DNA of 59,889 nucleotides from Anaerolineae bacterium. GTDB taxonomy: Bacteria; Chloroflexota; Anaerolineae; Aggregatilineales; Ch27. The notes below the pieces were generated by a model that was not told the DNA's origin, made no database searches, and saw only the letters and a program-made list of their open reading frames with translations. Numbering within the stretch: the stretch's first letter is position 1; each line of letters begins with the position of its first letter. The stretch covers positions 1 through 59,889 of the forward strand of contig JABLXG010000014.1 in assembly GCA_013178165.1 (NCBI GenBank). The letters run 5' to 3'. Both the position numbers and the translations under genes were made by a program. Below, piece by piece: positions 50,085-59,557 of the stretch.

Positions 50085-50885
50085 GGGAGTGTCTAAAGGT
50101 AAAGATATGGGTAAAATGGGGGTATGAGCCAATGTCCATACTGTCACCGAACCGAACAGCAGGTCAAAGCGGGTCTGAATGCCTCAGGCAGCCAGCGCTA
50201 TCTGTGTAAGGCGTGCCGCCGCAAGTACACGCCCCAGCCGAATGACATCGGGTATCCAGCTGAAATACGGCGCCAGGCGCTGGAGATGTATGTTGATGGG
50301 CTGAACTTTCGGCGTATTGCGCGCCTGCTAAAAGTCAACCATCAAACGGTCGCCAACTGGGTCAAAGCCCACGCTGATCAATTGCCCGATCCGCCGCCGG
50401 CTCCTGCCGAGCCCATTGAGGTGGAAGAACTCGATGAGTTGTTCACCTTCGTTGAGCGTAAAAAAACGTCGTCTACGTGATCACCCAGGTCGACCGAGCC
50501 AGTCGCTGCATTGTCGGCTGGGATGTGGTCTGGGAAAGGAGCACAGAGGCGCTGCAAGCCATGCTCGACCGTAATCCTCAGGCCCGGCGGTATTTTCGGA
50601 CGACTTCTCAACCTATCACACACTGGTGTACTATCCCGGTCGTCATCAGGCCCTGACCGACAAGAGCCAGACCTATTCCGTTGAAGCGGACAATGCTGAA
50701 CTCCGTCACTATCTGGCGCGGCTGGCGCGTAAGTCGCGTTGCTTTTCTCGGTGCATTCACGCCCTCTGGCGTTCTATCAAGTTGTTTGTGTTTGCCTGGA
50801 ACCGCCGCCAGTTATTCAAACGCCAGTTCCCGGCTTACCCGGCTCACCTGAAAGATTTCGTGTATCCTTGAAATTAGACACTCCC
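50085..50885 (+). mobile_element. IS1-like element, copy 2, with 8-bp target duplication
   Basis: 801 bases. The ends GGGAGTGTCTAA (50085-50096) and TTAGACACTCCC (50874-50885) are perfect 12-bp inverted repeats. GGATTTCA is found directly outside both ends (50077-50084 and 50886-50893), an 8-bp target duplication, which is what IS1-family elements make. The element sits 15 bases upstream of the lacI-type gene's -35 box. The left flank also carries ACACTCCC, matching the last 8 bases of the right end. Confidence 0.92.
50124..50871 (+). pseudogene. IS1-family transposase (copy 2), two frame breaks
   Basis: Frame 1 (50124-50480) has the zinc ribbon CPYCHRTEQQVKAGLNASGS and YLCKACRRKYTPQP, then the HTH region VDGLNFRRIARLLKVNHQTV and the beginning of the DDE domain LDELFTFVERKK. 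At the A7 run 50460-50466 a -1 shift restores NVVYVITQVDRASRCIVGWD, aligned residue for residue with copy 1. A second -1 shift at a short T run near 50595 restores YFSDDFSTYHTLVYYPGR and the end KSQTYSVEADNAELRHYLAR. The A7 could be a programmed slippage site as in IS1, but two breaks make a dead copy likelier. Confidence 0.8.
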
Positions 50886-50946: not shown

Positions 50947-50978
50947 ATCTTTTTTTGACCTGGGCTGGAATCGTTTCC

Positions 50979-51995
50979 ATGTCATCTGTCAGGTCAGCCA
51001 AGAGCACAATCCGTGATATTGCGACCCATGCTGGTGTAGGCGCGGGCACGGTATCGCGCGTCCTCAACAATCACCCTCATGTCAGCGATTCCACTCGCGC
51101 CAAAGTGCTCAAGGCGATCGAAGAACTGAACTATCGCCCCAGCTTTTCGGCCCGCCAGATGCGTACTGGCAAATCCCAGGTGATCGGCTTCATCACCGAT
51201 GAGATCGCTTCTACACAGTTTGCCGTCAACATCATCAAGGGTGCTCAGGCGGTCGCTTGGGACTACGGAAAACTGGTGCTAGTTGTCAACAGCGACGGCA
51301 ACCAAGCGATCGAGTATGAGGCTATCGAGATGATGCTGGAGCGAGGGGTCGATGGCATCATCTATGCTTCGATGTTCCATCGTCAGGCTCAGTTACCCGA
51401 CGCGATCCACGAAGTTCCTGCAGTCCTGGTGGACTGTTTTTTGCCGGATCGCTCTCTGCCTTCGGTTGTGCCGGATGAATTTGGCGCAGCTTATGAGGCA
51501 ACTGAGATTCTCATCCGTAAGGGACATCGCCGCATCGGGCTGATCAATCTCGGCGGAGAAGCCAAACCAGCCATCGAGGGTCGGTTGGCTGGTTATACCG
51601 CAGCGATGCAAGCCCATGGCTTATACGACCCGAACCTCATTATACATGGCGGAGATGAGGGAGCCGGTGGCCATGGTTATGTCAGTGCCATGGAACTCAT
51701 GAATCGCGCTGAGCGGCCAACAGCTATCTTCTGTGCCCAGGACCGAATTGCGGCGCAGGCTTATCGCGCCTTGCATGAACTGAGTATCGCCATACCTGAT
51801 GAAGTCGCTGTGATGGGTTTTGACAATCACATCGATGTGGCCACCACGCTCTCTCCGCCACTTTCGACAATGGCGTTACCCCATCTCGAAATGGGGCAGT
51901 GGGCGGTTGAGTACCTGTTGAGTGGGGCAGGGAAGCCGCTAGAGCCAGTGCAGGTCAAGCTACCCTGTCCATACGTCGAACGACAATCTATTTGA
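50979..51995 (+). CDS. LacI-family transcriptional regulator
   Basis: 338 residues from ATG 50979. The N-terminal HTH is TIRDIATHAGVGAGTVSRVL with the hinge YRPSFSARQMRTGKS. The periplasmic-binding-protein-like effector domain follows (QVIGFITDEIASTQFAVNII, VPAVLVDCFLPD, RPTAIFCAQDRIAAQAY, DEVAVMGFDNHIDVATTLSP). It most likely controls the downstream GH32 and sugar-transport genes, releasing its operator when a sugar ligand binds. The ligand cannot be read from the sequence but GH32 points to sucrose, a fructo-oligosaccharide or a phosphorylated derivative. It is in the same orientation as the operon. Confidence 0.93.
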   Translation: MSSVRSAKSTIRDIATHAGVGAGTVSRVLNNHPHVSDSTRAKVLKAIEELNYRPSFSARQMRTGKSQVIGFITDEIASTQFAVNIIKGAQAVAWDYGKLVLVVNSDGNQAIEYEAIEMMLERGVDGIIYASMFHRQAQLPDAIHEVPAVLVDCFLPDRSLPSVVPDEFGAAYEATEILIRKGHRRIGLINLGGEAKPAIEGRLAGYTAAMQAHGLYDPNLIIHGGDEGAGGHGYVSAMELMNRAERPTAIFCAQDRIAAQAYRALHELSIAIPDEVAVMGFDNHIDVATTLSPPLSTMALPHLEMGQWAVEYLLSGAGKPLEPVQVKLPCPYVERQSI

Positions 51996-52122: not shown

Positions 52123-53598
52123 ATGCGGATAATCCCGGCGAGCGCACATATGGACTCCGTCAGTTCACTACGTCGCCAGCACCGCTTTAACGATCACCAG
52201 CGTCCTCAATATCATTTCTTGCCGCCTGCCAACTGGATGAACGATCCAAACGGTCTTATTCAGTGGGATGGCCAATATCATCTGTTCTATCAGTACAACC
52301 CTGATGGGGCTTATCACGCCAACATGCATTGGGGCCATGCCGTCAGCTCTGACCTAATTCATTGGACGGACCTGCCGATTGCCCTCAAGCCAACTCCTGG
52401 AGGATGGGATGAAGGGGGCTGCTGGTCCGGCTGTGCAATCAACAACAACGGCGTGCCAACGCTCATGTATACGGGCGTGCGTGGCAAACGCGGTGAAAAT
52501 CAGGCACAGGGCATTGCCACCAGCAGCGATAACTTGCTGACCTGGCAGCAATATCCCGCTAACCCGGTAATCAGTCAAATTCCTGCCGAGGCGCGCCAGC
52601 GGCGTGATTTCCGTGATCCCTTCGTGTGGCGAGAGGATGATGGCTGGTACTTGTTGCTAGCTTCCCGTGTGGAAGGTATTGGCGGAACGGTATTTCTGTA
52701 TCGATCGCCCGACCTGATCCACTGGGAATATCTCAACCCGTTGCTCATTGGCCGGATGGAACAGACCGGGCGTACCTGGGAGTGTCCCAACTTTTTCCGG
52801 CTAGGTGACAAGTGGGTGCTGATCCTCTCCGCTCATATCGATCCAGAGCGCACTGCCAAGGTCTTCTACTTCGTTGGGGAATACAAAGAGCATCGTTTCT
52901 TCCCGGAAGTAGAGGGTATTTTTGATTACGGCGTGCTGTATGCCCCCCTTACCATGCAGGATGATCGGGGCCGCCGCCTGTTGTGGGGCTGGCTACGTGA
53001 AGACCGCACAGTCGAAAAACAGCTTGCTGCAGGCTGGTCAGGTGTGCAATCAATCCCGCGTGTACTCACGCTACTCCCTGATCATCGCCTGGGCACGACT
53101 CCCGCACCAGAGGTGGAACAGTTGCGTGGTGAGCACCAGCGCTACGCTGACATCTCCTTGAGCACCCTTGCCGAGGAAATGCGCTTGGAACCAGACGGTC
53201 ACGCCCTGGACATTGTGGCCGAATTCGAGCCTGGTCAAAAAGGTCTGTTCGGTCTGAGTGTACTTGCTACACCGGACGGCCAGGAAAGAACGCGCATCCT
53301 CTATGATGCTCCAACCCAGCGCCTGATTGTCGAGCGGATGCAGTCCAGTCTGGCCGATGGGGTGAATCCTTATGCTCATGCCGCCCCGCATCCATTGATG
53401 CCCGGCGAACGGTTGCAGCTCCGCATCCTGCTGGATGGCTCCGTAATCGAGATCATCGCTAATCAACGCACCAGCATTGTCAGTCGGGCGTATCCTACGC
53501 GCACCGACAGCACGGGGCTTACCCTTTTTGCGCACAACAGCGATGGCCATCTGGCCTCGCTGGAAGTGTGGAAGATGGCATCGATCTGGCCGGTCTAA
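52123..53598 (+). CDS. GH32 beta-fructosidase (sucrose-6-phosphate hydrolase / invertase-like)
   Basis: 491 residues. The five-blade propeller carries the nucleophile motif ANWMNDPNGL (Asp41), FRDPFVW (transition-state Asp) and TWECPNFF (acid/base Glu), followed by a C-terminal beta-sandwich. No signal peptide, so it works inside the cell on an imported fructose-containing sugar. ATG 52123 is 127 bases after the lacI-type stop; an in-frame ATG at 52150 is equally plausible as neither has a good Shine-Dalgarno. Whether the substrate is sucrose-6-phosphate, sucrose or an inulin-type oligosaccharide is not decidable; transport by an ABC system rather than PTS argues for the unphosphorylated sugar. 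Confidence 0.92.
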   Translation: MRIIPASAHMDSVSSLRRQHRFNDHQRPQYHFLPPANWMNDPNGLIQWDGQYHLFYQYNPDGAYHANMHWGHAVSSDLIHWTDLPIALKPTPGGWDEGGCWSGCAINNNGVPTLMYTGVRGKRGENQAQGIATSSDNLLTWQQYPANPVISQIPAEARQRRDFRDPFVWREDDGWYLLLASRVEGIGGTVFLYRSPDLIHWEYLNPLLIGRMEQTGRTWECPNFFRLGDKWVLILSAHIDPERTAKVFYFVGEYKEHRFFPEVEGIFDYGVLYAPLTMQDDRGRRLLWGWLREDRTVEKQLAAGWSGVQSIPRVLTLLPDHRLGTTPAPEVEQLRGEHQRYADISLSTLAEEMRLEPDGHALDIVAEFEPGQKGLFGLSVLATPDGQERTRILYDAPTQRLIVERMQSSLADGVNPYAHAAPHPLMPGERLQLRILLDGSVIEIIANQRTSIVSRAYPTRTDSTGLTLFAHNSDGHLASLEVWKMASIWPV

Positions 53599-53695: not shown

Positions 53696-55084
53696 ATGAC
53701 TACCAAAATAAGTCGTCGCGAGATGCTCAAACTTACCGCCGCAAGCGCGGTAGCGATGAGCACCGGCCTGGTTTCCAGCACAAAAATCTTCGCCGCGCCG
53801 CCAGGACAGGACACCATCACCCTGCGCTTCCAGGAAAACGAACAGTACTACGCGGAAGTCGTGGAAGCCTTTAAGCAGCAATTCCCGAACGTCAACATTG
53901 AGTACGTGACCGTAACTGGCATTGACCATGCTGAGGTCGCCAGCAAGATCCTCTCCCAACTGGCTGCCGGGACACCGGTTGACATTGGCTATGCAGCGAC
54001 AGAAGCGACCCAGCTGTATGCTGGTGAAGGTCTTGCCCTGCCTCTGACTCAGCGGGTGCTGGATTCCAAGGAAGAGTTGGCCGAGTACTTCGCTGACGTC
54101 AGCCCGGTACTGACCGAGACGATGATGTACGAAGGCGACCTGTACCAGCTGCCTCGTGACTTCAATGCTGCCAACATGTACTTCAACACGGAGCTGCTGG
54201 CCAAGGCCGGGCTGGAGATGCCGCCTGCGGAGTGGACGAAGGATGACTTTGTTGAATACGCCCGCGCCATGACCGGCATCGATGGCTCTTATGGCTATGG
54301 CTGGACAAACCGGCTGTGGGGTAGCTGGACACCCTGGTTCTTCGTCAACAACACCAACTTCTTGGTGGAAGAGCGTGCCCCCGGTGGCGAATGGATGTGG
54401 GAAACCTTCTATGCCGATGATCCCAAGGCCCAGGGTCGCGGCGGCGGCTGGCGCTGGCCAGCTCCACAGGCCAACAATCCGGAAATGCTGGAAGCCTTGG
54501 AGTTCGTCGTCTCGCTCACGCGGGATGGTCTGACGCCAGAAGTGGGCATGGGCACAGGCGAAACACTGACGGGCTTCTTCACCAGCGGCAAGCTGGGCAT
54601 GACCCCGGCTGGTGGTTTCTGGTCCGGAAACCTGTACAATCAAGGCATGCCCAAGGATGCATTTGACGTCCAGTTCTGGCCAGCCTGGAAGTCCCAGCGC
54701 CATCAACTCGGTGTTGGTGCAGCCTGGATCCTGAACGGGAGCCAGCATGAAGATGAAGCCTGGGAGTTCGTCAAGTTCACCACCAAGAAGGAGATCATGG
54801 AAATCTGCGGTCTCTTCAACCCGGTGACTCTGACAACCCCGGTGCGCCGCTCGATGAATAACGAAGAGCGTTACTCGGTCACCGGCCCGGCCAACTGGCA
54901 GGTCTTCTATGCCACGCTGGATGAGCGTCCGGATACTGGCCCGATTCCGGCCCCGGTCTTCTCCATCGAAATGACTGACATCTACACCCGGTTCACCGGC
55001 CTGGCGGTTAATGGCGACATGACCCCCAAGGAAGCGCTGGACGGTATGCAGGCCGAACTCGAGGCGCTGTACGCTCGGCAATAG
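53696..55084 (+). CDS. Sugar ABC transporter substrate-binding protein (family 1)
   Basis: 462 residues, Shine-Dalgarno GAAGGAG. The N-terminus SRREMLKLTAASAVAMSTGL has a twin-arginine-type pattern, so it may be exported folded; a cleavage near IFAAPPG is likely and no lipobox is present. The mature part has LRFQENEQYYAEVVEAFKQ, PVDIGYAATEATQLYAGEGL and QLPRDFNAANMYFNTELLAK, typical of cluster-B/family 1 oligosaccharide-binding proteins such as MalE/UgpB. The Trp/Tyr-rich middle (WTNRLWGSWTPWFF, WRWPAPQ) suits sugar stacking. It starts the transporter operon; a hairpin follows before the first permease. Confidence 0.92.
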   Translation: MTTKISRREMLKLTAASAVAMSTGLVSSTKIFAAPPGQDTITLRFQENEQYYAEVVEAFKQQFPNVNIEYVTVTGIDHAEVASKILSQLAAGTPVDIGYAATEATQLYAGEGLALPLTQRVLDSKEELAEYFADVSPVLTETMMYEGDLYQLPRDFNAANMYFNTELLAKAGLEMPPAEWTKDDFVEYARAMTGIDGSYGYGWTNRLWGSWTPWFFVNNTNFLVEERAPGGEWMWETFYADDPKAQGRGGGWRWPAPQANNPEMLEALEFVVSLTRDGLTPEVGMGTGETLTGFFTSGKLGMTPAGGFWSGNLYNQGMPKDAFDVQFWPAWKSQRHQLGVGAAWILNGSQHEDEAWEFVKFTTKKEIMEICGLFNPVTLTTPVRRSMNNEERYSVTGPANWQVFYATLDERPDTGPIPAPVFSIEMTDIYTRFTGLAVNGDMTPKEALDGMQAELEALYARQ

Positions 55085-55102
55085 TCAGCAATGTAAGGCA
55101 AT

Positions 55103-55132
55103 CCCTGGGGAGCCGTCCCTGGCTCCCCAGGG
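55103..55132 (+). terminator. Perfect 12-bp hairpin between binding-protein and permease genes
   Basis: CCCTGGGGAGCC (55103-55114) pairs perfectly with GGCTCCCCAGGG (55121-55132) around a 6-base loop. There is no T run, so it is more likely a partial terminator or an mRNA-stabilising/processing hairpin that keeps binding-protein transcripts in excess over permeases, as seen in malE-malF type operons. Confidence 0.7.
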
Positions 55133-55154
55133 TACTTGAACAGGAGGCTGCGGA

Positions 55155-56102
55155 ATGGTCTCTCAAGCCATACAGCCGAAACGCAATCGGATCACCCAGT
55201 GGCTTGCTGCCGACACAATGGAAGGTATCCGACGCCAGCGTGCGTTGCTGGGTTATCTGTTTATTGCGCCATCTATCATCGGATTGCTGATTTTCATTAT
55301 CGGCCCGATGATCGCTACATTCGCTTTGAGTTTCTTTAAATGGAATGTCTTCCGGCCGCCAGAGTTCATTAATTTCGAGAATTTCACCCGGCTGTTCAGC
55401 GATCCGCGCGTTTTCACGGCCTTCAGGAACACATTTCTGCTGGTCATAATGACTGTGGTTATGCTGGAAATCTTAGCTCTGGCGCTGGCACTTTCAGTGC
55501 ATCGCCTGGCCAGCCGCCCACTGAGCTACTTTTTCCGGACGTCATACTTCCTGCCAGTGCTGCTCTCTGGCGCAGCGGTAGCCGTGACGCTAGGTTATAT
55601 GTTTCACCGCGATTTTGGGGTTATCAACTACTACCTGGGATTGCTTGGTATCCCCAAAATCTCCTGGTTGACTGATAGTAATGTGGTGCTGTGGTCCGTT
55701 TCTCTCACGACAGTCTGGCGCAATTTGGGTTTCACTTTCATCATTTATCTGGGTGGGGTCAGCTCTCTACCAACTGAGATTCTTGAAGCGGCCCAGGTAG
55801 ATGGGGCGTATGGCTGGCGACGGTTGAAAAGCGTGGTGCTTCCTCTGCTGAGTCCGACTATCCTGTTCGCCACTGTGACGGACATCATCAAGATGCTCCA
55901 GTTCTTTGATGAGCCGTTCATCATGACGCGCGGGGGTCCCGGCGATGCCAGTCGTACTGTGGTGATGCTGATGTATGAGAACGCCTTTGGCAACCTGGCT
56001 TTCGGTTACGGTTCAGCTATTGCCCTGATTCTCTTCGCCGTGATCCTGCTCGTGACCGGCATCCAATTTGCGCTCAGCCGCCGCTGGGTCTTCTACAGTT
56101 AG
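55155..56102 (+). CDS. Sugar ABC transporter permease 1 (MalF/UgpA-like)
   Basis: 315 residues with six TM segments expected. AGGAGG lies before the ATG. The cytoplasmic EAA loop is EILEAAQVDGAYGWRRLKSV followed by LPLLSPT, the contact point with the ATPase. The start region LLGYLFIAPSIIGLLIFIIG and MTRGGPGDASRTVVMLMYE are typical of CUT1 permeases. It forms the pore with the next gene. No ATPase gene lies in the operon, so a shared MsmK/UgpC-type ATPase from elsewhere must energise it. Confidence 0.93.
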   Translation: MVSQAIQPKRNRITQWLAADTMEGIRRQRALLGYLFIAPSIIGLLIFIIGPMIATFALSFFKWNVFRPPEFINFENFTRLFSDPRVFTAFRNTFLLVIMTVVMLEILALALALSVHRLASRPLSYFFRTSYFLPVLLSGAAVAVTLGYMFHRDFGVINYYLGLLGIPKISWLTDSNVVLWSVSLTTVWRNLGFTFIIYLGGVSSLPTEILEAAQVDGAYGWRRLKSVVLPLLSPTILFATVTDIIKMLQFFDEPFIMTRGGPGDASRTVVMLMYENAFGNLAFGYGSAIALILFAVILLVTGIQFALSRRWVFYS

Positions 56103-56112
56103 GAGGAACGCC

Positions 56113-57006
56113 GTGACCACGACATCACCTAGAATGGCTACGCACAGTAGCGCCTGGTCAAACAGGCTGTCCAGGACTATCCCACGCAAGCCAGGAGACT
56201 GGGTTCGCCTGCTGTTCTTGTTTGTCATTGCTGTGCTGACGCTGATGCCCCTTGTCTGGGTGGTCTCCACCTCGTTGCGTCAGCCGATAGAATCGTTCAG
56301 TGTCCCGCCAGAGTGGATTCCGGTCGACATGGACTTCAGCAACTACAACGAGGTCTTCGAGCGGATTCCTTTCTGGAGTCAGATGACCAACAGCTTCATC
56401 ATCACTATTACGGTTGTCGCTGGCCAGATCGTTACCGCATCGTTGGCTGGTTATGCCTTTGCCCGGCTGCGCTTTCCGGGCCGGAACTTTCTGTTTTGGA
56501 TGGTCTTGGCCACTATGATGATCCCTGGCCAGGCAACGATCATCCCGGTGTTCATTCTGATCTCACGAGGACTGGGAATCAACGACACGCTCTGGGCGCT
56601 GATCATCCCTAGCCTATCCACAGCATTCGGCATCTTCTTGCTGCGGCAGTATTTCCTGCAAATCCCTGGCGACTTTGAAGAAGCTGCCATGATCGATGGC
56701 GCCAATCAGTGGCAGATCTTCCGCCAGATTTACTTCCCCTTGGCTTCACCAGGGCTGGCTATCCTGGCCGTTTTGACCTTCAACGCTAAGTGGAATGACT
56801 ACTTTACGCCGCTGGTCTTTATGAACACCAAAGACCGCTTCCCGATCACGCTTGGTATCGTCGACCTGAAGGGTTACATGGCGACGGGCAGTATCTCTGT
56901 TGTGCTGGCGGGGATCGTACTGTCCACAATCCCGGTGATCATCATCTACATCTTCGGCCAGCGCTACCTGATCGAAGGCCTGATGATGGGTGGTATCAAA
57001 GGCTAG
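56113..57006 (+). CDS. Sugar ABC transporter permease 2 (MalG/UgpE-like)
   Basis: 297 residues starting with GTG 56113, placed by AGGAGG that itself overlaps the stop of permease 1; an ATG at 56068 would run inside permease 1. It has six expected TM segments and the EAA loop PGDFEEAAMIDGANQWQIFR followed by YFPLASPG. YAFARLRFPGRNFLFWMV and VLTFNAKWNDYFTPLVFM are characteristic of MalG-type CUT1 permeases. The chaperonin-like gene begins 3 bases after its stop. Confidence 0.93.
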   Translation: MTTTSPRMATHSSAWSNRLSRTIPRKPGDWVRLLFLFVIAVLTLMPLVWVVSTSLRQPIESFSVPPEWIPVDMDFSNYNEVFERIPFWSQMTNSFIITITVVAGQIVTASLAGYAFARLRFPGRNFLFWMVLATMMIPGQATIIPVFILISRGLGINDTLWALIIPSLSTAFGIFLLRQYFLQIPGDFEEAAMIDGANQWQIFRQIYFPLASPGLAILAVLTFNAKWNDYFTPLVFMNTKDRFPITLGIVDLKGYMATGSISVVLAGIVLSTIPVIIIYIFGQRYLIEGLMMGGIKG

Positions 57007-57009
57007 CCC

Positions 57010-58638
57010 ATGAAACTGACACAACGGCCAGGAGTGGTTTTCCAGCCCAGAGTCCATGCCGCCATGCAGCGTGGTATTCACAGCATGGTCAATGCCATCC
57101 GACCGACTTTAGGGCCTGTTGGAGGCGTAGTAGCCATCGAACCCATACACAACAAGTCACAGAAGCCACCAGAGGTCATTGATAATGGCGGGATCATTGC
57201 CCGCCGGATCATTGAACTGGCTGACCGTGATGAAGATATGGGGGCTATGCTGCTTCGGGCGATGATTCGCCGCCAGCAGGAGGATGTTGGCGACGGTACG
57301 GCGACGGCCGCTGTACTTTTCCAGGCCATCTATGATGCAGGTCTGCGCTACCTGACTGCCGGCGAAAACGCCATGCGGCTCCGCGAATATCTGGAAAACA
57401 CCCTGCCGCTTATCCTGGCTGAGCTTGACCGGATGACCTTTCGCGTAGAAGGCCAGGCAGCCCTGACCAGAATCGCTCAATCCCTGTGCCACGACCCTGA
57501 AATGGCTGAGTTGCTGGGGGAAATATTCGACACAGTCGGCGAATACGGTCAGGTTGACATCCGTAAAGGTTACGGACGCGGTCTCAAACGGGAATACGTC
57601 GAAGGGGTTTATTACCCAACAGGACTGTTCTCCCGCGAGATGGTTGACAAACAGGAGATATTCCGGGCGGAGTATCAGAACCCGGCGATCTTCATCTGTG
57701 ACTTTGAGGTTGATGAGCCGCGCGATCTGTTCCCGGTGCTTAAAGTGGCCGCTGACGCAGACATCCCGGCACTGGTTCTAATTCTGCGGAACATGACCGA
57801 CCGCGCCATGTCAGTTATTCTGGCCAACAAGCGGATCGACAAGTTCAAAGCGATGGCCATTAAGCTGCCTGGGCTGAACCCAGAAGATCGTCTGGCAGCG
57901 CTGGAAGATCTGAGCATTCTCACCGGCGCAATGCCGCTCCTGACCGCCACCGGCGAGACACTCGAACAGGTGACGCAGCAGCACTTTGGGCAGGCTCGGC
58001 GTGTTTGGGCAGAGCAGCGAACGTTTGGCATCATTGGCGGGCGTGGGAATCCCCGCCGCCTGCGGGAACACTTCGCCAGTCTTGAGAAACGCTTCCGCCT
58101 CACGCAGGACTCTGAGCAGCGCCAGCGCCTTCAGCAACGTCTAGGTCGCTTGATGGGCGGCTCAGCCACACTATGGATTGGCGGGGCAACCGACTCAGAA
58201 ATCGAGATGCGTAAAACCATCGCGGAGCGGGCCGCCGCTGCGGTACGTACTGCAGTGCGCGACGGTGTGATCCCTGGCGGTGGACTGGCGTTACTGAATT
58301 GCTGCGCGGCTCTGGAGCAACGCTGTAAAACCGCGTCTGAGTCTGCAGAGCGGGCAGCTTGCCATATTCTCTCCGAGGCTCTTGCCACTCCCATGCGTGC
58401 GATCTTCGCCAATGCAGGCTTCAATCCAAGCGAGATCATGGCCAGACTGGCTTTTGAGGATAGCGCCATGGGCTTTGATGTGGTCCAAAAGCGAGTTGTC
58501 AATGTTGTAGAGGCGGGCATTCTTGATAGCGCTGCCGTGCAAAAAGCTGCCGTGCGCAATGCGGTGTCGACAGCAGCGCTGGCACTGACGATTGATACCT
58601 TCGTACATCTGCGCAAACCGGAAATCGCCCGGGACTAG
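57010..58638 (+). CDS. Divergent GroEL-like chaperonin in a sugar-transport operon
   Basis: 542 residues along the whole GroEL length, with equatorial, intermediate and apical parts recognisable: NAIRPTLGPVGGVV, EDVGDGTATAAVLFQAIYDA, EYVEGVYYPTGLFSREMVDK and RDGVIPGGGLALL. By eye against E. coli GroEL, Asp87 is kept (Asp95) but Asp52 is Asn59 (VIDNGG) and the hydrolytic Asp398 is Arg407 (KTIAERAAAA). The GGM tail is absent; it ends HLRKPEIARD. It could still bind nucleotide, but probably not hydrolyse it normally. The 3-base gap to permease 2 and 10-base gap to the propeller gene indicate co-expression. No GroES is in the window. A dedicated folding or scaffolding function is inferred. Confidence 0.88.
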   Translation: MKLTQRPGVVFQPRVHAAMQRGIHSMVNAIRPTLGPVGGVVAIEPIHNKSQKPPEVIDNGGIIARRIIELADRDEDMGAMLLRAMIRRQQEDVGDGTATAAVLFQAIYDAGLRYLTAGENAMRLREYLENTLPLILAELDRMTFRVEGQAALTRIAQSLCHDPEMAELLGEIFDTVGEYGQVDIRKGYGRGLKREYVEGVYYPTGLFSREMVDKQEIFRAEYQNPAIFICDFEVDEPRDLFPVLKVAADADIPALVLILRNMTDRAMSVILANKRIDKFKAMAIKLPGLNPEDRLAALEDLSILTGAMPLLTATGETLEQVTQQHFGQARRVWAEQRTFGIIGGRGNPRRLREHFASLEKRFRLTQDSEQRQRLQQRLGRLMGGSATLWIGGATDSEIEMRKTIAERAAAAVRTAVRDGVIPGGGLALLNCCAALEQRCKTASESAERAACHILSEALATPMRAIFANAGFNPSEIMARLAFEDSAMGFDVVQKRVVNVVEAGILDSAAVQKAAVRNAVSTAALALTIDTFVHLRKPEIARD

Positions 58639-58648
58639 AGGCTGGCTC

Positions 58649-59557
58649 ATGATACAGGGCTTTGAGCAGACACAAGATACAGTCTACAGCCTGGCGCGTT
58701 GTCAGGATGCATGCTTTGCTGCCCGCTTTTCTGGAATTTACCGGTCGGATGATGGTGGGCGCAGCTGGTCACTCGCCTATAAAGCACCGGATACGGATAG
58801 CCCTCTGGCTACTACCACCTTAGCGGCTCTTGGCCAGAATATATTTGCCGGCGTCAAAGGAGGTATCCTGCGTTCCAGTAACTGTGGGGTGGACTGGTTT
58901 GCAGCGGTGCTTCCCCCTCCTGCACCGTTAATCAGCGCCTTGGCCATCTCGCCGAATTTCGAGCAAGATGGAGTTCTAATCGCTGGTACAGCTGAAGACG
59001 GTGTTTTCGTCTCCACCGATCGCGGTGTCCAGTGGCAGCCGTGGAACTTCGGCCTGCTTGATCTGGCAGTGTACGCAGCTGCTTTTTCGCCTCATTTCGG
59101 TAATGACCAGACCATCTTCATCGGAACGCAAACCGGCATTTTCCGCAGCAAAAATGGCGGGCGGGCCTGGCGTAGCGTATCGTTCCCGATGGACGCTGCC
59201 CCCGTACTCAGCCTTTGCCCTTCACCAGATTTTGGGCGGGATCATCGCTGGTTTGCTGGCACTGAGGCCAATGGTCTGTATATGTCCGGGGATAACGGTG
59301 ATACCTGGGAACGGATAGAGTCGGATCATATCAGTGGTGCAGTCAATGCCATTATCATCCCCTCAGCATCCCCCCAAGAACTCTGGGTCTTGCTGGATGA
59401 CCGTCTTGTTATTTCCCGCGATTCAGGTCAGCACTGGACGACATCCTCAGTCTTTTCTCCAGAGTCGCCAGCCCTTGCGGTTCTACCTGGAAACGGGCAA
59501 CAACACCCTACGCTGGTAGGCTTTGCCAACGGCACAATTCTGCCTCTGGAGCCGTAA
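58649..59557 (+). CDS. Six-Asp-box (BNR) beta-propeller protein
   Basis: 302 residues from ATG 58649, 10 bases after the chaperonin-like stop. Six S-x-D-x-G-x-x-W-type repeats are spaced evenly: SDDGGRSW, SSNCGVDW, STDRGVQW, SKNGGRAW, SGDNGDTW and SRDSGQHW. These are the Asp-box turns of sialidase/Ycf48/sortilin-type propellers. There is no sialidase Arg triad that I can see, no signal peptide and no TM segment, so it is probably a cytoplasmic protein-protein or ligand-binding propeller. Ycf48-type proteins assist protein assembly, which is compatible with its chaperonin-like neighbour, but this is inference. Confidence 0.85.
   Translation: MIQGFEQTQDTVYSLARCQDACFAARFSGIYRSDDGGRSWSLAYKAPDTDSPLATTTLAALGQNIFAGVKGGILRSSNCGVDWFAAVLPPPAPLISALAISPNFEQDGVLIAGTAEDGVFVSTDRGVQWQPWNFGLLDLAVYAAAFSPHFGNDQTIFIGTQTGIFRSKNGGRAWRSVSFPMDAAPVLSLCPSPDFGRDHRWFAGTEANGLYMSGDNGDTWERIESDHISGAVNAIIIPSASPQELWVLLDDRLVISRDSGQHWTTSSVFSPESPALAVLPGNGQQHPTLVGFANGTILPLEP

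Follow-up and report, generated by a model that had tools for sequence, protein, structure and literature searches.

Few protein machines are as conserved as GroEL, and the ATP cycle that it runs with GroES is regarded as what defines it. The protein considered here, which together with its Chloroflexota family is named CPNL, resembles canonical group I GroEL in its full-length three-domain fold (AF2 model, TM 0.87 in Foldseek) and in its phosphate-binding loops, and it mostly keeps the columns of Asp87, Asp495 and Arg452. It differs from the GroEL/GroES system in lacking Asp398, Thr90 (replaced by Ala), Tyr203, the GGM tail and a GroES neighbour, in having a beta-propeller partner, and in an identity of about 32%.

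Like CPNL, chlamydial GroEL2 and GroEL3 are divergent bacterial GroEL paralogues. CPNL matches their NCBIfam models with 98–132 bits, although this is far below the model cut-offs (600), and we know of no propeller partner of the chlamydial proteins. Bacteria commonly have more than one GroEL, with altered tails (PMC11978752), and GroEL2 of Myxococcus xanthus is a GroEL copy specialised for one process (PMC3578752). Unlike CPNL, this and other specialised duplicates are known working chaperonins, with no propeller partner described. In eukaryotes, BBS6, BBS10 and BBS12 are chaperonin-like, have a degenerate ATP motif and act on the beta-propeller BBS7 (PMC5534436). CPNL shares with them a derivation from chaperonins, an altered ATP site and a beta-propeller partner; however, the BBS proteins belong to group II (CCT-derived) and are not operon-linked, whereas CPNL belongs to group I and is of independent origin. 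As to the partner, a seven-bladed propeller of the Asp-box type is also found in Ycf48/HCF136, but Ycf48 works in photosystem II assembly, while the CPNL partner shows no visible signal peptide. We know of no chaperonin partner of Ycf48. The initial annotation of this DNA knew of no description of a chaperonin paralogue tied to a CUT1 transporter; in the open-access literature searched, no earlier account of this arrangement or of a similar chaperonin was found, nor any of a group of GroELs that have all lost Asp398 and have a propeller as partner.

The locus and its chaperonin-like protein

The window (the whole stretch of DNA analysed, 59,889 nucleotides) is contig C14 of a Chloroflexota genome of 4.19 Mb in 52 contigs, 98.6% complete. 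The region of interest (Table 1) encodes, all on the plus strand and in this order, LacI, GH32, the binding protein, permease A, permease B, CPNL and the Asp-box protein. ORF coordinates and Pfam matches agree with the initial annotation on the five co-directional genes from the binding protein to the propeller, with gaps of 70, 10, 3 and 10 bases.

Table 1. Features of the CPNL region, in positions of the window
Feature	Position	Strand	Basis
LacI-family repressor of the operon	50955..51995	+	Pfam LacI + Peripla_BP_3
GH32 enzyme (sucrose-6-phosphate hydrolase / beta-fructosidase type), first structural gene	52123..53598	+	Pfam GH32N/GH32C
CUT1 substrate-binding protein (SBP)	53696..55084	+	Pfam SBP_bac_1
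CUT1 permease A (MalF/UgpA-like)	55155..56102	+	Pfam BPD_transp_1; NCBIfam UgpA, 97 bits
CUT1 permease B (MalG/UgpE-like), GTG start	56113..57006	+	Pfam BPD_transp_1; NCBIfam UgpE, 129 bits
CPNL, GroEL-derived chaperonin-like protein, 542 aa	57010..58638	+	Pfam Cpn60_TCP1, residues 28-532
Codons Asp58-Asn59 of CPNL (GroEL positions 51-52)	57181..57186	+	Residue table
Codon of CPNL Arg407 (catalytic Asp398 position of GroEL)	58228..58230	+	Residue table
Asp-box seven-bladed beta-propeller, 302 aa from ATG 58649	58649..59557	+	Pfam BNR/PSII_BNR/Sortilin; AF2

The best NCBIfam match of the GH32 enzyme was scrB_fam, with 267 bits (below the cut-off of 356), and LacI genes recur in the GH32-type CPNL loci. 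The presence of GH32 and LacI suggests sucrose or fructan use, in line with the usual roles of both families. Upstream of the LacI gene, a short ORF at 50124–50480 of the window encodes an InsA-type zinc ribbon with a helix-turn-helix (IS1-like transposase fragment; Pfam). The binding protein and the two permeases make up a CUT1 sugar ABC transporter with a shared ATPase elsewhere: the operon has no ATPase gene, and the genome contains four MalK-type ATPases at other places, which makes it unlikely that CPNL stands in for the missing one. A reading of the locus as anti-phage defence was discarded, with no match to any PADLOC model, and no plasmid match was found by DNA similarity.

Besides its fold, the match of CPNL to PF00118 (145 bits, above the cut-off) places it in the GroEL / Cpn60 superfamily. 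Its score with the broader subfamily model PRK12849 was 362 bits, above the cut-off of 352, and that with the GroEL equivalog TIGR02348 was 340 bits, below the cut-off of 582. In the alignment to GroEL, Asp52 corresponds to Asn59, Asp398 to Arg407 and Thr90 to Ala98, while Asp87 and Asp495 are kept; the two Asp replacements that had been read from the source protein are correct. The GGM tail had been reported as absent, and indeed the end of CPNL is not Gly-Met-rich, nor are the tails listed for the family. A groES partner gene is also lacking: in the CPNL loci that were inspected, none was found on either side. On contig C22 of the same genome there is a canonical GroEL with its GroES, 32% identical to CPNL, which rules out that CPNL is the only GroEL of the genome and bears out the earlier opinion that it is not the housekeeping chaperonin. 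In 12 CPNL-bearing genomes the canonical GroEL was next to GroES every time (12/12) and never next to a propeller (0/12) or, as direct neighbour, to a CUT1 gene (0/12). In most CPNL genomes, the GroES that accompanies the canonical GroEL is the only one. The source genome has a further GroES gene that apparently stands alone (G000:C40:3871-4128), and similar ones were seen in G001:C8 and other genomes of the order. CPNL is thus a chaperonin by descent, but by the functional criteria applied here it does not qualify as a GroEL.

The comparison with a 95%-identical relative gave dN/dS values of 0.044 for CPNL and 0.071 for the propeller, indicative of purifying selection on both; the value for permease B was discarded as meaningless because of a length difference.

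Family distribution and ATP-site residues

CPNL genes were present in 13 of the 61 genomes of the order, with identities of 37–55% (95% within the same genus) as compared to about 29–34% for canonical GroELs. Among relatives that carry a name, the MAG labelled Chloroflexi bacterium S1bins113 comes nearest to the source genome; its chaperonin is 95% identical. A scan of 84,980 species genomes gave 172 related stretches, and the best 80 of the 172 were nearly all from Chloroflexota MAGs. The family is monophyletic and apart from canonical GroEL (support 0.96–0.99), and the GH32-linked chaperonins, that of the source included, form one clade (support 1.0). The source protein shows the marks of the proposed Chloroflexota family, i.e. 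monophyly, Asp at position 51 and loss of Asp398. The cassette was also seen in MAGs labelled Bacteroidetes, Acidimicrobiia, Actinomycetota and Falkowbacteria (L081, L106, L115, L118 and L120); these are probably mislabelled bins, because their chaperonins nest inside the Chloroflexota tree.

The residues of the ATP site were compared between 67 non-redundant CPNL members and 34 canonical-type GroELs of the same phylum. Asp398 occurred in 0/67 of the former versus 34/34 of the latter, a set picked for having both Asp52 and Asp398, so that the comparison shows the losses of the family and is not an independent estimate for canonical GroEL. Three sequences set aside from the canonical-type set are CPNL or its Arg398 relatives. 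Position 398 of CPNL is occupied by Arg (49), Glu (13), His (2), Gln (2) or Ala (1), while position 52 has Asp in 25 members, Asn in 16, Lys in 15 and Ser in 8, so Asp52 was lost in about 60%. Accordingly, of the two Asp replacements of the source protein only that of Asp398 holds as a family trait, that of Asp52 does not. A new family signature is an Asp at position 51, one residue before the Asp52 column, in 65/67. Thr90 is replaced by Ala in 63/67 and Tyr203 is lost; Asp87 and Asp495 are kept in all members. With regard to a heptameric (double) ring, the Arg452 column is kept in 59/67 and position 461 is Asp or Glu in 59/67. An apparent change of Asn479 to Asp was rejected as an ATP-site change, as canonical Chloroflexota GroELs also have Asp there. 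Concerning the functional effect of the replacements, the D398A mutant of Escherichia coli GroEL retains ATP binding and 2–3% ATPase (PMC3326522, PMC3813556), so any loss of ATPase in CPNL need not be complete.

Positions 52 and 398 combine in a restricted manner: Asp, Asn, Ser, Ala or Thr occur with Arg, and Lys with Glu (13 cases), Gln or Ala, but Lys never with Arg; according to the tree, Lys52 has two separate origins. The covariation of both positions ranks 386 among 136,523 long-range column pairs, within the top 0.3% but not near the very top, and it is suggestive rather than proof. The apical domain is the most variable part of CPNL (39% identity versus 51% for the equatorial domain), whereas the relation is reversed in canonical GroEL (65% versus 61%).

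The tree contains forms that branch off at the base of CPNL or before it. A basal group (L059–L063 and L180) has Asp398, a GroES neighbour and a non-GGM tail ending in NP. Another one, branching before CPNL (L161–L163), keeps Asp398, has no GroES neighbour and is accompanied by an Asp-box partner of 661–672 aa, while Glu398 forms (L171, L176, L177 and L179) occur beside Asp-box partners of 702–721 aa. The series ends with Ala398 and Arg398 forms, followed by CPNL with its seven-bladed propeller. The long partners are probably two-propeller forms, and the groups that have them can be read as a related chaperonin-propeller system of other families of the phylum. The most economical reading would be that the propeller partnership is older than the loss of Asp398, with the order of steps being provisional because some deep branches are weakly supported.

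Propeller and transporter as partners

The initial annotation had described a six-Asp-box propeller; six Asp-boxes are present, and the AF2 model (pLDDT 93) has seven blades. The propeller is probably cytoplasmic, since in most loci only a few residues separate the opening of the reading frame from the first strand, and inspection by eye shows no signal peptide. Outside the Asp-boxes, the strongly conserved residues are confined to blades 3–5, with the conserved polar Glu135, Asp136, Asn152, Asp157, Asn188 and Arg191 on blades 3–4, which points to one putative binding face. The nearest solved fold is that of Ycf48 (8am5, 5oj3), with TM 0.65 and 12–17% identity, but the score with the Ycf48 model PRK13684 was 34 bits, below 326, which does not indicate orthology to the photosystem II assembly factor.

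A propeller of this kind (A3 subfamily) adjoins CPNL in 49 of the 67 non-redundant loci with room for it, the source locus included. The two genes overlap by 4 bases in 12 loci and are separated by 1 base in 6, as in translational coupling, which may apply here. Among the genomes of the order, the subfamily was found in 11/13 with CPNL versus 0/48 of the others (Fisher p = 2e-10), and in one of the two CPNL genomes without it CPNL lies at a contig edge. Among 400 genomes of the phylum, exactly 4 have the subfamily, all of them with an Arg398 chaperonin: three have CPNL itself, and in the fourth, G110, a different contig encodes an Arg398 relative. This strict co-occurrence rules out that the propeller is merely one of many Asp-box proteins. 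The distances of CPNL correlated with those of the propeller with a Spearman coefficient of 0.80 (44 loci) and with those of permease B with one of 0.43 (29 loci); in the 16 loci having both partners the correlations were equal (0.65 and 0.64). The earlier suggestion of a dedicated, ATPase-altered chaperonin paralogue with a propeller is supported by a pairing that extends over many lineages and by this co-occurrence. The tightest partner of CPNL is the propeller, not the transporter, and as far as can be judged from the genomes the pairing is real, conserved and unusual.

The 18/67 loci with no adjoining propeller belong mainly to the Lys52/Glu398 clade, and several of their genomes have a second CPNL that has a propeller. 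In that clade (L121, L123, L127–L130, L134, L136, L137, L143, L146 and L151) a conserved gene of about 310–340 aa was observed downstream, of which the three examples read all resembled an unfamiliar membrane protein. Here the end of permease B and the beginning of the chaperonin gene mostly share 4 bases. Two apparent exceptions were dismissed. A chaperonin-propeller fusion in L037/L105 is a long ORF of the chaperonin frame running over the propeller gene, which is itself broken by a frame change that is probably an assembly error; the absence of the propeller in L036/G009 is a gene-calling artefact, as the gene is present.

A strict pairing could mean that CPNL serves to fold or assemble its own propeller, as CCT and the chaperonin-like BBS proteins do with BBS7, the propeller being the actual effector in sugar uptake. 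This is conceivable, if rather improbable. The 33-kDa propeller would fit the GroEL chamber, and there is the eukaryotic parallel of BBS6, BBS10 and BBS12, with altered ATP motif, stabilising BBS7 (PMC5534436). However, related genomes without CPNL encode dozens of Asp-box-like candidates, the early partners of 660–720 aa (about 70 kDa) exceed what the GroEL chamber is known to hold, and a non-hydrolysing ring would be a poor cycling foldase. Besides, we know of no need of a dedicated chaperonin for Asp-box propellers such as Ycf48.

Concerning the transporter, a CUT1 permease lies directly upstream of CPNL, on the same strand, in 31/65 loci, with permease A at -2 in 26 and the binding protein at -3 in 26; the background in random segments was 4 permeases among 140 genes (about 3%). 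On the other hand, a CUT1 gene is absent from the nearest four genes in 20 of the 55 informative loci, and a search for a shared function of these neighbourhoods found no dominant gene family. So, of the conserved neighbourhood that the initial annotation advised to look for, the propeller part was recovered, while the tie to the CUT1 transporter holds in some loci and fails in others. Mapped on the tree, the link was gained or lost about 9 times; the linked permeases fall, at 50% identity, into three larger groups and five singletons. Carbohydrate operons, CUT1 ones and others, received CPNL at their 3′ end repeatedly. Other carbohydrate genes observed beside it would encode, as read from sequence, GH29, polyol-type dehydrogenases and a DapA-like aldolase.

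On this evidence, CPNL is unlikely to serve as the dedicated chaperonin of the CUT1 transporter or of the glycoside hydrolase of its operon. The idea agrees with the upstream permease, with the short distance between the permease B stop and CPNL, which is only a few bases in many loci and turns into an overlap of 4 bases in one clade, and with several independent recruitments with different permeases, but not with the loci devoid of nearby CUT1, whose neighbours have no common theme, nor with the varied enzymes of the operons (GH32, GH29, dehydrogenases, aldolase), nor with the 117 permease domains of the source genome for one CPNL. Because of this last figure and of the CUT1-less loci, CUT1 transport is a frequent setting of CPNL, neither an obligate nor a defining partner.

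It is very unlikely that CPNL is an ordinary secondary GroEL, a stress or backup chaperonin with an incidental operon position. About 30% of bacteria have several GroELs, often with altered tails (PMC3578752, PMC11978752), but here the catalytic Asp is lost in all members, there is no GroES neighbour, and the gene is co-inherited with the propeller, recurs at operon ends and is under strong purifying selection. Least probable is a sugar- or sugar-acid-binding or hydrolytic propeller with CPNL as a nucleotide-sensing scaffold linking sugar uptake to energy state, which could draw on the retained phosphate-binding loops (TLGP, GDGTxT, PGGG), the polar residues of blades 3–4 and a sub-threshold match of the propeller to the NCBIfam glycosylhydrolase F510_1955, but is opposed by the absence of an identified hydrolase active-site pattern in the propeller and by the many CPNL loci outside sugar operons.

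Proposed mode of action and significance

The reading that we prefer, and to which we give an even chance, is that CPNL is a Chloroflexota-specific GroEL paralogue that has left the normal ATP/GroES cycle and acts as a single unit with a seven-bladed Asp-box propeller, cytoplasmic and dedicated to it. Its basis is the GroEL ancestry, the universal loss of Asp398, the lack of a GroES neighbour, and the pairing and co-occurrence with the propeller. CPNL and the propeller would bind each other, and the CPNL subunits would still form a ring in which ATP hydrolysis is lost or nearly lost.

The AF2 model of CPNL (pLDDT 91) is far closer to GroES-bound GroEL (TM 0.86–0.88, about 3 Å) than to open GroEL (TM 0.61, about 11 Å), a comparison that concerns the prediction of a CPNL monomer alone. 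In GroEL, positions 52 and 398 are near each other only with the intermediate domain down, as in the ATP/GroES-bound state, and for this reason a side-chain pair at these positions fits a closed resting state. The pair (Asp/Asn/Ser-Arg, or Lys-Glu in other branches) could replace the nucleotide-driven hold on the intermediate domain, which would keep the ring close to the shape that GroEL has when closed by GroES. Through its conserved face, the propeller may recruit or regulate a client, and the fast-evolving apical domains of CPNL may match the client of each operon. In the source genome the client would probably be, as a guess, the sucrose/fructan transporter or the GH32 enzyme of the same operon.

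A more specific version is doubtful: a closed-locked, seven-membered ring, with a salt bridge in place of the ATP-driven contact and a single propeller replacing GroES at the mouth, would give membrane transport or carbohydrate enzymes a stationary chamber or scaffold. Two points weaken the idea of a symmetric lid: only blades 3–5 are conserved outside the Asp-boxes, and the early partners have twice the length.

A whole bacterial lineage, living intermediates included, appears to have shed its GroES neighbour, gained a beta-propeller and then lost Asp398, all the while under strong purifying selection. It suggests a protein-folding machine rebuilt for a different job. CPNL lets one test what a chaperonin ring does without ATP hydrolysis, how a co-chaperonin is exchanged, and whether the chaperonin-propeller partnership known from CCT and the BBS proteins had an independent origin in bacteria.
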